DNA from: Candidatus Manganitrophaceae bacterium
GTDB taxonomy: Bacteria > Nitrospirota > Nitrospiria > SBBL01 > Manganitrophaceae
Direction of reading: 5' to 3'
DNA length: 64,000 nt
NCBI GenBank assembly: GCA_016200325.1
Contig: JACQEZ010000011.1
Location: 558,001 to 622,000 of the forward strand
Part shown: positions 54,762 to 58,871 of the stretch, in pieces
Layout of the letters: every line of letters begins with the position of its first letter
Numbering within the stretch: the first letter of the stretch is position 1
Notes under the pieces: generated by a model
Told to the model about the DNA's origin: nothing
The model's database searches: none
What the model saw: the letters and a program-made list of their open reading frames with translations, nothing else
Made by a program: the position numbers and the translations under genes

Positions 54762-55145
54762 TTACGGCGTGACGGTCAACGTGCCGCGCATTTCCATGTG
54801 AATGGCGCAAAAGAAGTCGTAGGTGCCGGGCTTATCAAATTGCATTTGAAAGGTCTCGCCGGGGGGAAGGAGATGGTGAATCAAAAGATCATCGACGACA
54901 TGCGCCGGCTCTTTCCGGTTCGGATCGGCGGCGGTCAGAAAGTGGGTTCGCTTGTCTTCATTAATCCAGGTGACCTGGCTCCCCATTTTGATCTGTTGTG
55001 TTTTGGGTGAAAACTCGGTCCGGCCTTCCGGAATTTTGAATTCGATCTTATTGGCTGCATCGGCCCCCTGCAAATTCAGCAGGGCGACCCAGAGGATGAT
55101 GAGGAGCAGACCGACTCGAAAAAGGGACGACTTTTTTTTATTCAT
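54762..55145 (-). CDS. Small periplasmic cupredoxin
   Basis: A 127-residue exported protein. The ATG at 55145 follows GAGGGC and begins MNKKKSSLFRVGLLLIILWV, a good signal peptide ending near ADAAN; an ATG at 55187 would add 14 residues. The mature part is a plastocyanin-like fold with candidate type I copper ligands H68 (EDKRTHFLT), C113, H116 and M119 (FFCAIHMEMRG). The ligand spacing C-x2-H-x2-M is the short loop seen in plastocyanin- or amicyanin-like proteins. It probably transfers electrons or binds copper. It stands alone between the efflux operon and the cold-shock gene. Confidence 0.82.
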   Translation of the reverse strand: MNKKKSSLFRVGLLLIILWVALLNLQGADAANKIEFKIPEGRTEFSPKTQQIKMGSQVTWINEDKRTHFLTAADPNRKEPAHVVDDLLIHHLLPPGETFQMQFDKPGTYDFFCAIHMEMRGTLTVTP

Positions 55146-55290
55146 ACTTACGCCCTCGTTCATGATAATAAATTTTCGTTGGAACATCTCTTAAATTAAT
55201 TGTAGCGGACAGTGCAGGATAAAGCAATCATACCACAGGCCAAGCCCAACGTCAGGGGCAAGTCAGGGGGAGGACGATTCGAGCCGTTTT

Positions 55291-55331
55291 CAAAACAAAA
55301 AAGCCCCGCCGGAGGAAAAATCCGGCGGGGC
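55291..55331 (-). terminator. Intrinsic terminator of the cold-shock gene
   Basis: A perfect 11-bp GC-rich stem (GCCCCGCCGGA 55303-55313 with TCCGGCGGGGC 55321-55331) and a 7-nt loop. On the minus strand it is followed by TTTTTTGTTTTG. It lies 22 bp after the stop. Confidence 0.9.
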
Positions 55332-55353: not shown

Positions 55354-55560
55354 TTAGGAAATTAATCTGACATTGGTGGCTTGAGGACCTTTCTGCCCTT
55401 GCGTGACATCGAATTCGACTTTGTTGCCTTCTTCAAGGGACTTGTAGCCGTCACCGACAATGGCCGAAAAGTGAACAAACACATCGGCTCCCCCATCCTC
55501 ACGGGTAATAAATCCATAGCCTTTGCTGCCGTTGAACCACTTTACTGTTCCTTTGATCAT
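55354..55560 (-). CDS. Cold-shock domain protein (CspA family)
   Basis: A 68-residue single-domain protein. The start is the ATG at 55560, with AGAGGAGAAACACCCA upstream; the frame extending to 55602 is untranslated leader. RNP1 is KGYGFITRE and RNP2 is DVFVHFSAI; both carry the aromatic residues that stack on nucleic acid. It binds single-stranded RNA or DNA as a chaperone. The gene is preceded by an unusually structured leader (55604-55693) and followed by a strong terminator. Confidence 0.96.
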
Positions 55561-55603
55561 TGGGTGTTTCTCCTCTTTTTTATCAGCTCTCGCTGATGGC
55601 AAC

Positions 55604-55693
55604 GTCCATTGTTCTAAGTTAAAAAAAAAGCTGCAGCGAGTTGTAATAGCTGCAGCCGATCCGGTTTTCTCCTCTTCAACTTTTACAATGGAC
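55604..55693 (-). promoter_or_regulatory. Structured leader with terminator-like hairpin before the cold-shock gene
   Basis: On the minus strand an 8-bp hairpin (GCTGCAGC twice, 55630-55637 and 55649-55656) is followed at once by nine or ten T residues, like an intrinsic terminator. Around it, longer complementary arms can pair: ACAATGGAC (55685-55693) with GTCCATTGT (55604-55612) and AACTT (55678-55682) with AAGTT (55616-55620). The start codon is 44 bp further on, after another small hairpin (ATCAGC/GCTGAT). Possible -35 TTGACA lies at 55752-55757 on the minus strand. This suggests transcript attenuation or a temperature-responsive leader. Confidence 0.6.
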
Positions 55694-55864
55694 TCCCCTC
55701 ACTTGTACCATGATTTTTTATAAAAAATCAACGAAATTAATTTCTCTTTTGTCAAGGGGATTCACACGGGGGAGTCGGTTCTCCGACCTCCCTTATTTTA
55801 TTGAGGCGGTGTATAATCGCTGACGGCCGGCGCCTCCGCGGCGCGCCCTCTTTTCTGGAGGAAG

Positions 55865-58378
55865 ATGTCACTCCCGATTGATGAAGTCATCCCCCCACTG
55901 CGGCAGCGTTTGTCCGCTCATTCTGCCGTGGTTTTACAGGCGCCTCCCGGCGCCGGCAAGACGACCCGCATTCCGCAGGCTCTGCTGCGAGAGCCGTGGC
56001 TGAGAGATCGGTCGATTCTGATGCTGGAGCCGCGCCGGCTGGCGGCACGGGCGGCGGCGGCGCGGATTGCGGCGCTGTTGGGAGAATCGGTCGGCGAGAC
56101 GGTCGGCTATCGGATTCGCTTCGAAACAAAGGTTTCAAAGAAGACCCGGATCGAAGTGCTGACCGAGGGAATTCTGACCCGTCGCTTGCAGTCCGATCCG
56201 GCATTGGAAGGGGTCGGTCTCGTGATCTTCGATGAGTTTCATGAACGGCATCTCCATGGCGATCTCGCCCTCGCCCTCTGTCTCGACAGTCAACGGGTCT
56301 TGCGCGACGATTTAAAGCTCCTCGTCATGTCGGCGACGCTGGAGGGAGCCGCCGTGGCCTCCCTCCTCGGCGACGCACCGGTGATCACGAGTCAGGGGCG
56401 ACAATTTCCGGTCGACATCCGTTACGCTTCCCGCGATCCTGAAGGCCGACTGCCGCAGGTCGTCCATCAAGCAGTCCTCCAGGCGCTCGACCGGGACCCA
56501 GGAGACCTCCTCGTCTTTCTTCCGGGGTCGTCCGAGATACGCCGGACGCAGGCGCTGCTCACGCCGCTGTTGAGTCCGCGCCGGATCGAACTCTTTCCAT
56601 TGTATGGCGACCTGCCTTGGGAGGCACAAGATCGTGCCCTCCGACCGACGACGGGGGGGCGCAAGGTGGTGCTCGCGACGCCGATTGCGGAGACGAGTTT
56701 GACCATCGAGGGGGTCGGCGTGGTGATCGATGCCGGATTTGTCCGGGTTCCCGAATTTGATCCGGCCCGCGGATTGACCCGGCTGACGACCAAGCGGATT
56801 TCCCGCGCTTCGGCCGAACAGCGGGCGGGCCGCGCCGGACGGCTCGGTCCCGGCATCTGCTACCGGCTCTGGAGTGAGGCGACGCAGCGGGGGTTGATGG
56901 CCCAGCCGATTCCCGAAATCCGCACCGCTGATCTGACGCCGCTGGCGCTCGAGCTTGCGCAGTGGGGGGTGCGCGAGGCCGACACCCTCTCCTGGCTCGA
57001 CCCCCCTCCGCAGGCGGCCCTCGCCCAAGCACGCCGCTTGCTGACGGAACTCGACGCGTTGGACGAAGCGGGATCGATCACCCCGTCGGGCCGGGCGATG
57101 GTCGCCTTCCCCTTGCATCCCCGTTTGGCGCACATGTTGTCCCGGGCCGAGGCGCGCGGATTCGGCCGTCTCGCCTGCGACCTTGCCGCGTTGTTGTCGG
57201 AGCGAGAGATCCTCGTTGGGGATCGGCGGCGCTCTTGCAATCTGATCGATCGGCTGGAGGCGCTGCGCGCCTTTCGGGAGGAGGGGAGAGCGGGAGCAGC
57301 GTCGCACGGCGCCGATCCGAGCGCCTGCCAGCGGGTCGAACAGGCGGCGCATCAGTATCAGCGGCTCCTGCGCGGCCAAAAAACGGACGCCGGACGGGAT
57401 CTGGAGCAGGCCGGTCTCCTCCTCGCGTTCGCCTATCCCGACCGGGTCGCACAGCAGCGCGCTCCCGGAGAGGTTCGCTACCTTCTCGCTTCCGGCCGCG
57501 GCGCCCGCCTGCCGGAGCAGGAACAGCGGCTACGCCAGCCGACGCTGGTGGTGGCGAGTCTGGACGCAGGCGAAATAGAGGGGGCGATCTATTTGGCGGC
57601 CGCCGTTGAGATCGATCAATTACGGCAAGAGCTGGCCGCGCACGTTCGGACCGAAGCGGTCATCCGGTGGGACACGCGCCAGCAGCGGGTGATTGCGTTG
57701 AAGGAAGAACGGCTCGGTGAATTGGTCATCGACAGCGTGCCCCTTTCCACCCCCGATCGGGAGCGGCTTCGCGGTGCGATGCTGGAGGGGGTTCGGCAGT
57801 TGGGTGTCGCCGCGCTGCCTTGGGGCGATGAGGCGCGCGATTGGCAGGCGCGGGTTTTGTCGCTGCGTCACTGGTTTCCGGAGGAGGGTTGGCCCGATCT
57901 CTCCGATGTTGCGCTGGGGGAGACGTTGGAAGAATGGCTCGCCCCCTTTCTCGATCGGTTCACCCGCCGCGAGCAGCTGAAGCAGCTCGACCTGCTCGCC
58001 GCCTTAAAAGCCCGGCTCGACTGGAATCAAGGCCGGCGATTGGAAGAGGGTGCGCCAAGCCATCTGACGGTCCCCAGCGGATCGCGACTCCGGCTGGAAT
58101 ACCGGCCTGGAGAGCCGCCGGTGCTCGCCGTCAAACTGCAAGAGATGTTCGGGCTTGCCGAAACGCCCCGGGTCGCCTGGGGGAAGGTGCCGGTCACGCT
58201 CCATCTTCTCTCCCCGGCGCGTCGTCCCATCCAAGTGACCCAAGATCTGCGCGGCTTCTGGGAACGGACCTATGCTGAGGTCAAGAAAGAGTTAAAGGGA
58301 CGCTATCCGAAACATCCGTGGCCCGATGACCCGTGGAATGCGGTGCCGACCCGACGCTTGAGGCCGCGCTCTCCTTAA
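55865..58378 (+). CDS. hrpB: ATP-dependent DEAH-box helicase HrpB
   Basis: An 837-residue helicase. Motif I is APPGAGKTT (25-33), motif II DEFHER, motif III SATLEG, and motif VI QRAGRAGRLGPG. The C-terminal part holds the HrpB-specific region with WLAPFLDR near residue 680 and the closing RYPKHPWPDDPW, a hallmark of HrpB's end. The length matches E. coli HrpB (about 810). It lacks features of HrpA. The role in bacteria is poorly defined, with RNA metabolism likely. GGAGGAAG lies upstream of the ATG. It is divergent from the cold-shock gene. Confidence 0.95.
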   Translation: MSLPIDEVIPPLRQRLSAHSAVVLQAPPGAGKTTRIPQALLREPWLRDRSILMLEPRRLAARAAAARIAALLGESVGETVGYRIRFETKVSKKTRIEVLTEGILTRRLQSDPALEGVGLVIFDEFHERHLHGDLALALCLDSQRVLRDDLKLLVMSATLEGAAVASLLGDAPVITSQGRQFPVDIRYASRDPEGRLPQVVHQAVLQALDRDPGDLLVFLPGSSEIRRTQALLTPLLSPRRIELFPLYGDLPWEAQDRALRPTTGGRKVVLATPIAETSLTIEGVGVVIDAGFVRVPEFDPARGLTRLTTKRISRASAEQRAGRAGRLGPGICYRLWSEATQRGLMAQPIPEIRTADLTPLALELAQWGVREADTLSWLDPPPQAALAQARRLLTELDALDEAGSITPSGRAMVAFPLHPRLAHMLSRAEARGFGRLACDLAALLSEREILVGDRRRSCNLIDRLEALRAFREEGRAGAASHGADPSACQRVEQAAHQYQRLLRGQKTDAGRDLEQAGLLLAFAYPDRVAQQRAPGEVRYLLASGRGARLPEQEQRLRQPTLVVASLDAGEIEGAIYLAAAVEIDQLRQELAAHVRTEAVIRWDTRQQRVIALKEERLGELVIDSVPLSTPDRERLRGAMLEGVRQLGVAALPWGDEARDWQARVLSLRHWFPEEGWPDLSDVALGETLEEWLAPFLDRFTRREQLKQLDLLAALKARLDWNQGRRLEEGAPSHLTVPSGSRLRLEYRPGEPPVLAVKLQEMFGLAETPRVAWGKVPVTLHLLSPARRPIQVTQDLRGFWERTYAEVKKELKGRYPKHPWPDDPWNAVPTRRLRPRSP

Positions 58379-58385
58379 GCGCCGT

Positions 58386-58871
58386 TTATTTTGGGACAAA
58401 TTTCAACGCGGCCGAATTGATACAGTACCGAAGCCGCGTCGGCGGGGGACCGTCATCAAAGAGGTGTCCTTGATGGCCTCCGCATCGGCGGCAATGGACC
58501 TCGGTCCGGGGGTAGAGGAGCTTCCAGTCGGTTTTCGTACGGACCGCCGTCGGCTCGATCGGTTTCCAGAAGCTCGGCCAGCCGGTGTGGCTGTCATATT
58601 TGGTCTCGGAGGAGAAAAGGGGGAGGTCGCATCCGGCACAGCTGTAGAGGCCCGGTTTTTTGTTGTTGAAATAGGGATTTTTGAAGGGAGGCTCCGTCGC
58701 CTCTTTTCGGAGGACATTAAATTGCTCCGAGGTCAGGACCGCCCGCCACTCCTCTTCCGTTTTTTTAATCTCGAAGGCCTCTTCAGGCGCTTCAGCGCGT
58801 ACCGGCCAAAGGTCCATAAAATAGGCGATTGTCCCCAGCATTCCGATTTTTAATGCGTCTCTCCGGTTCAT
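58386..58871 (-). CDS. msrB: Exported methionine-(R)-sulfoxide reductase
   Basis: A 161-residue MsrB with an N-terminal export segment (MNRRDALKIGMLGTIAYFMD); the RR pair followed by a hydrophobic run resembles a Tat signal. The catalytic domain has two CxxC zinc pairs (SCAGCDLP; CRRCGGHQGH) and the catalytic cysteine in RYCINSAALKF. It repairs oxidised methionine, here probably in the periplasm, which is less usual for MsrB alone. It converges with hrpB, whose stop is 7 bp away. GGAGGC precedes the ATG. Confidence 0.93.
   Translation of the reverse strand: MNRRDALKIGMLGTIAYFMDLWPVRAEAPEEAFEIKKTEEEWRAVLTSEQFNVLRKEATEPPFKNPYFNNKKPGLYSCAGCDLPLFSSETKYDSHTGWPSFWKPIEPTAVRTKTDWKLLYPRTEVHCRRCGGHQGHLFDDGPPPTRLRYCINSAALKFVPK

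Follow-up and report, generated by a model that had tools for sequence, protein, structure and literature searches.

The csp gene examined here encodes a 68-aa cold-shock protein on the minus strand of the window, the whole 64-kb stretch of DNA that was analysed (start ATG at 55560, coding sequence 55560-55354), and is one of eight cold-shock domain (CSD) matches in the 4.2-Mb genome to which the window belongs. It is preceded by a leader of ~135 nt, counted from a predicted +1 at ~55695. By eye, the divergently transcribed neighbour (55865-58378, plus strand) resembles an HrpB-type ATP-dependent helicase, the minus-strand gene at 54762-55187 looks like one for a secreted protein of cupredoxin type, and that at 58386-58871 like one for a methionine sulfoxide reductase B. 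A search of the 64-kb window against Rfam at the gathering cut-off returned nothing except two tRNAs. All parts of the leader were read on the minus strand, the hairpin and its flanking arms at the positions given by an earlier sequence-only reading of this DNA, which had described an 8-bp hairpin followed by nine or more T residues upstream of the csp start. These parts, with the gene and its own terminator, are:

55726..55731, minus strand: −35-like hexamer TTGATT (read; near-fixed spacing to the P1 5' arm among 23 aligned leaders)
55702..55707, minus strand: −10-like hexamer TACAAG within TGGTACAAG (read; 23-leader alignment)
55685..55693, minus strand: 5' arm of the outer stem P1, GUCCAUUGU (reading, fold, covariation, shuffles)
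55678..55682, minus strand: 5' arm of the inner stem P2, AAGUU (fold)
55665..55677, minus strand: purine-rich tract GAAGAGGAGAAAA (fold; purine tract conserved among leaders)
55629..55657, minus strand: terminator-like hairpin P3 (reading, fold, terminator scan, covariation)
55621..55629, minus strand: U tract of nine U (reading; conserved among leaders)
55616..55620, minus strand: 3' arm of P2, AACUU (reading, fold)
55604..55612, minus strand: 3' arm of P1, ACAAUGGAC, 3' of the terminator (reading, fold, covariation, shuffles)
55582..55597, minus strand: hairpin P4, AUCAGC-GAGA-GCUGAU, 5' of the ribosome-binding site (fold; covariation)
55570..55574, minus strand: Shine-Dalgarno AGGAG, mostly accessible by prediction (reading, fold)
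55354..55560, minus strand: csp coding sequence, cold-shock domain, 68 aa (open reading frame; CSD match; NCBIfam NF049933)
55303..55331, minus strand: strong intrinsic terminator at the 3' end of the csp gene itself (terminator scan)

The P3 hairpin joins GGCUGCAGC (55657-55649) with GCUGCAGCU (55637-55629) through eight Watson-Crick pairs and a basal G-U pair, and closes on a loop of 11 nt. Around P3 and the U tract (55657-55621), the 9-bp P1 stem pairs 55693-55685 with 55612-55604, and the AAGUU/AACUU arms lie inside it, so that the flanking arms proposed to enclose the hairpin were indeed found. The inner stem P2 extends to 7-8 bp in same-genus orthologs, for example AAGUUGAG/CUCGACUU, and the evidence for it is confined to the genus level. 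In the fold of the full leader, part of the purine-rich tract GAAGAGGAGAAAA pairs with the U tract.

The predicted minimum free energy of the leader was −50.0 kcal/mol, as compared to −30.5 +/- 3.4 for 200 dinucleotide shuffles (z = −5.73, none of the 200 being as low). The outer helix, taken alone, was equalled in none of 100 shuffles, nor did any 3' region swapped in from unrelated leaders give an equal helix. The paired arms were also found to covary, in two different alignments. In a MAFFT alignment of 14 sequences, 94% of cells were paired, against 25-49% for structures slid along the alignment, and seven pairs had changed on both sides, with four of the nine P1 pairs among them. When 27 distinct copies were aligned to the covariance model, the corresponding values were 96% against 28-50%, both sides had changed in 11 of 22 pairs (39 cells), and the covariation score was reached in none of 500 shuffles; this alignment is biased towards the structure, a bias that the MAFFT alignment does not share. 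A minor contaminant, the antisense of L040, was present among the 30 matches aligned. Covariation was seen in all three helices (P1, P3, and P4) and was strongest in P1, where six of nine pairs showed double changes and pair 7 occurred as U-A (n = 13), A-U (n = 10), or C-G (n = 1). For P3, both sides had changed in two of seven pairs and 94.9% of cells were paired.

Since csp orthologs and paralogs alike are preceded by this element, in versions that differ by compensatory changes, the leader is not a product of chance, and we regard its anatomy and conservation as nearly certain. That the hairpin arose by chance, or that it terminates a gene lying upstream, is a most improbable explanation, being contradicted by both conservation and covariation; moreover, no gene on the same strand needs a terminator at this place, because the neighbour at 55865 is divergent.

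The orthologs in five same-genus genomes and the csp genes of a family of the same order (f5) carry the leader. A covariance model (R1) built from 14 leaders was used to search 246 genomes of the class and found 25 copies in 14 of them, all within the order of the window, in the manganese-oxidising Candidatus Manganitrophus and in one sister family, and each copy that was read ended at a csp start codon. In the genome of the window, the R1 leader precedes three csp genes, one of them weakly, and is absent from five of the eight. A wider search of the phylum with the model added nothing credible; one weak match (L241, E = 0.096) was set aside, no csp gene being recognised by eye in its sequence. 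Another csp gene of the same genome (L004) may have a degenerate version of the leader, in which GCAAAUGAUUUUGC and, further on, GCAAAUUAUUUGC pair to enclose a GC-rich hairpin with a weak T run.

Upstream of P1, the two hexamers resemble a consensus promoter and are separated by a spacer of 18 nt. Same-genus relatives have TTGACC at the position of the −35-like hexamer, and the counterpart of TGGTACAAG in relatives is TATGGTATAAAA. Across 23 leaders, the TTGA-like and TATGGTATAAAA-like elements stand at a near-constant distance 5' of P1, and this distance leads to a predicted start about two bases 5' of the P1 5' arm, that is, at ~55695 in the window, the arm itself starting at about +3 of the predicted transcript. 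No promoter-like site was detected when the same strand of the leader was scanned 3' of the hairpin. These results disfavour a transcription start downstream of the hairpin, which the sequence-only reading had named, beside a lack of covariation in the arms, as an observation that would undo it, although the start itself is a predicted one.

A stable hairpin directly followed by a U tract lies between a predicted promoter and a gene, and the P3 stem has been kept by compensatory change, as expected of an intrinsic attenuator. Judged from these sequences, P3 probably works as a terminator, and early termination is suggested to keep csp genes at a low level. How widely such hairpins occur was assessed on csp leaders collected from 57 relatives' genomes, in a mechanical scan for hairpins with a U tract behind them. 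A terminator-like hairpin was found 35-140 nt 5' of the start in 49 of 113 csp leaders, as compared to seven of 128 control leaders, which belonged to other genes with a free upstream region in the window and in the relatives' genomes (Fisher, p = 1.4e-12). After removal of the R1-type leaders, 32 of 94 csp leaders still carried one (p = 5e-8); both p-values are overstated, since related leaders were counted as independent. These hairpins were spread over nine families of the class and had diverged in sequence, their cores commonly sharing CCGCAG..CUGCGG or CUGCAG..CUGCAG. The core ACCGCAG..CUGCGGU was seen class-wide (L021, L025, L026, L028, L029, L031, L083, L101, L117, L120, L130, and others).

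The enclosing stem has a narrower distribution. It is well supported in the order of the window and reasonably supported in the AGCUUUGUUUC group, where 97% of cells were paired against 32-48% for slid structures but few double changes were present. It possibly occurs in the UUGGUAAUU group, and in groups C, D, E, G, and I it was not convincingly above shuffles. An enclosing stem common to the whole class was consequently rejected.

Among the csp genes of other phyla, those of Chloroflexota have leaders in which a hairpin is followed by a T-rich run and shows compensatory changes, for example CGGCUCAUGG..CCAUGAGCCG with UUUUGUUUU. In seven of these leaders (L179, L183, L184, L196, L198, L210, and L231), the order of parts is an arm, the terminator-like hairpin, a second arm, and then a hairpin (UUGCC..AGGAGGCAA) that includes the Shine-Dalgarno sequence. 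Single-sequence folds gave a longer enclosing stem in most Chloroflexota leaders; the consensus fold of these leaders did not recover it.

A rival explanation sees in the leader above all a structure for stabilisation or processing: the P1-P2-P3 rod would guard the 5' end against 5'-end-dependent RNases or be a substrate of RNase III, and the resemblance of P3 to a terminator would be secondary. P1 starts at the predicted 5' end and is retained in L059, which has lost P3, and in L051, where P3 is weak; the full leader, as folded, pairs its U tract with the purine tract; and a cspA 5'UTR hairpin of S. aureus is cut by RNase III (PMC3386247). However, most copies keep an uninterrupted G/C-rich P3 stem with seven to nine U immediately after it, and csp leaders from nine families repeat the hairpin with diverged sequence; a stabiliser would have no need of these features. 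We thus consider this explanation unlikely on the whole, even if it is the most probable of the competing ones. In L051 and L059, both from genome G009, the outer stem, the purine tract, and the P4 region are conserved. The retention of P1 and P4 in these two leaders suggests that P1 has a role of its own, most simply in mRNA stability, and the degenerate P3 indicates that attenuation is not indispensable in these two relatives.

The promoter and terminator would also yield a discrete RNA of ~75 nt, and the core sequence of P3 is conserved, as might be expected if the terminated leader were a trans-acting small RNA and csp were expressed by leaky read-through. Nevertheless, every copy that was read is joined to csp, R1 found no free-standing copies, and the covarying P1 and P4 helices sit partly or wholly past the terminator, and such a role for the leader appears very unlikely.

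The sequence-only reading had proposed that the transcript is attenuated at normal temperature and read through in the cold. In equilibrium predictions from 5 to 55 °C, P3 formed in the nascent leader with a probability of 0.97-0.996 (98% at 37 °C), P1 formed in the full leader with 0.96-0.99, the ribosome-binding site was mostly open, and no structure competing with P3 or P1 was seen. The description of the csp leader is supported, with a hairpin resembling an intrinsic terminator enclosed by a longer stem. A cold-driven switch in the RNA itself is not supported, the predicted folding being constant from 5 to 55 °C; kinetic effects are outside the reach of an equilibrium computation. An attenuator that senses cold without a protein, through an altered speed of the polymerase or altered folding that lets it pass the terminator, would fit the nature of the downstream gene and the precedent of the E. 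coli cspA leader, a thermosensor. In view of the constant predicted folding, which leaves polymerase and folding kinetics aside, we hold this to be improbable.

Two further candidates for a switch within the RNA were rejected. The outer stem cannot decide whether the polymerase stops, because its 3' arm is made after the U tract, and the stem and the terminator coexist. Pseudoknot pairing of the P3 loop with the segment upstream of it (AGUUG/CAACU and GAAAG/CUUUC by eye) was at chance level, with three of 41 leaders ranking among the top 5% against their own shuffles and a median fraction of 0.41, and thus no pseudoknot antiterminator was found in the RNA. More generally, the leader showed no mutually exclusive RNA antiterminator of the riboswitch or leader-peptide type; attenuators relieved by a protein need none. 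As P3 has no upstream competitor, any regulation would have to rely on polymerase kinetics or on a signal external to the RNA.

For the source of such a signal, the gene family itself is a natural candidate. E. coli CspA, CspC, CspE, and CspD lower intrinsic termination (PMC9765468, PMC11648934), and the protein encoded in the window scored 120.3 bits against the CspE antiterminator family (NCBIfam NF049933, cut-off 120), a marginal pass by 0.3 bits. Taken together, E. coli Csp antitermination and this family score make Csp proteins the natural candidates for release.

The best explanation, to which we give a probability of about 0.5, is that the leader is a conserved cis-acting intrinsic attenuator of csp, for which Csp-type RNA chaperones are the likeliest means of relief, with a stem that closes the 5' end after read-through. 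RNA polymerase would start about two bases 5' of the outer 5' arm and make P3 and the nine U, where by default some transcripts would end and leave a leader RNA of ~75 nt. A polymerase that escapes termination would go on to make the 3' arm, and P1 and P2 would then close the leader as a rod, pairing the extreme 5' end and covering the U tract while the Shine-Dalgarno sequence stays open. The rod would probably shield the mRNA from 5'-end-dependent decay; for a stabilising effect of P1 on the read-through mRNA, we put the odds at about even. The release signal would most likely be a member of the Csp family, a single-strand-binding chaperone that binds the nascent leader and hinders P3 in a positive feedback. 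By analogy with E. coli, relief of P3 termination by Csp is a tentative proposal. It is somewhat more doubtful still that csp genes of Nitrospirota, and those of Chloroflexota by independent or ancient origin, have a terminator that is relieved by their own product, with the 5' end of the read-through RNA subsequently locked in a stem around that terminator. Such an arrangement would join Csp antitermination to the leader control of csp genes, and it predicts that Csp feeds back directly on the transcription of its own gene. It would also describe a structured RNA outside the Rfam families with an odd order of parts, the 5'-end stem being completed only by polymerases that have gone past the terminator.

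The leader in the window shares features with several known systems and is distinct from each of them. In E. coli, the thermosensor in the cspA leader refolds with temperature and so acts on translation and stability. The cspA leader and that of the window are both long structured csp leaders 5' of a ribosome-binding site, but the leader in the window shows no predicted refolding from 5 to 55 °C at equilibrium. In agreement with the view of the sequence-only reading that it differs from the cspA model, the window scored 50.3 bits against the E. coli cspA 5'UTR family (RF01766), below the gathering cut-off of 78, with a model of 428 positions that here covers the coding region too. Three csp loci of relatives (L101, L184, and L198) pass this cut-off with the same model, which spans coding sequence. 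Moreover, the terminator scan used above found no such hairpin in the leaders of E. coli cspA, cspB, cspE, cspF, cspG, and cspI, and a marginal one in that of cspH. Premature termination near the csp start is also known from the 5'UTRs of E. coli cspB and cspG, where it is reported to be Rho-dependent (PMC7815308), whereas in the window it would depend on an intrinsic hairpin and a U tract. The lowering of intrinsic termination by Csp at metY-rpsO, and by CspD at small RNA terminators, resembles the proposed release step, but acts on other genes, and the accessible portions of these reports contain no csp leader built like that of the window. In S. aureus, RNase III cleavage of a long cspA 5'UTR hairpin raises stability and translation; regulation there proceeds by processing, and no terminator is mentioned in the available part of that report (PMC3386247).

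Rfam contains no family for this csp leader, and the literature searched, mostly open access, described no intrinsic terminator for any csp leader, whether alone or inside a 5'-end stem. Stem-loops of the ompA type at the 5' terminus stabilise mRNA. The paired 5' end is common to these and to the leader in the window, whose stem instead encloses an intrinsic terminator and would form only after read-through. The leader would thus be of attenuator type, in a gene family whose control through leaders is already known.
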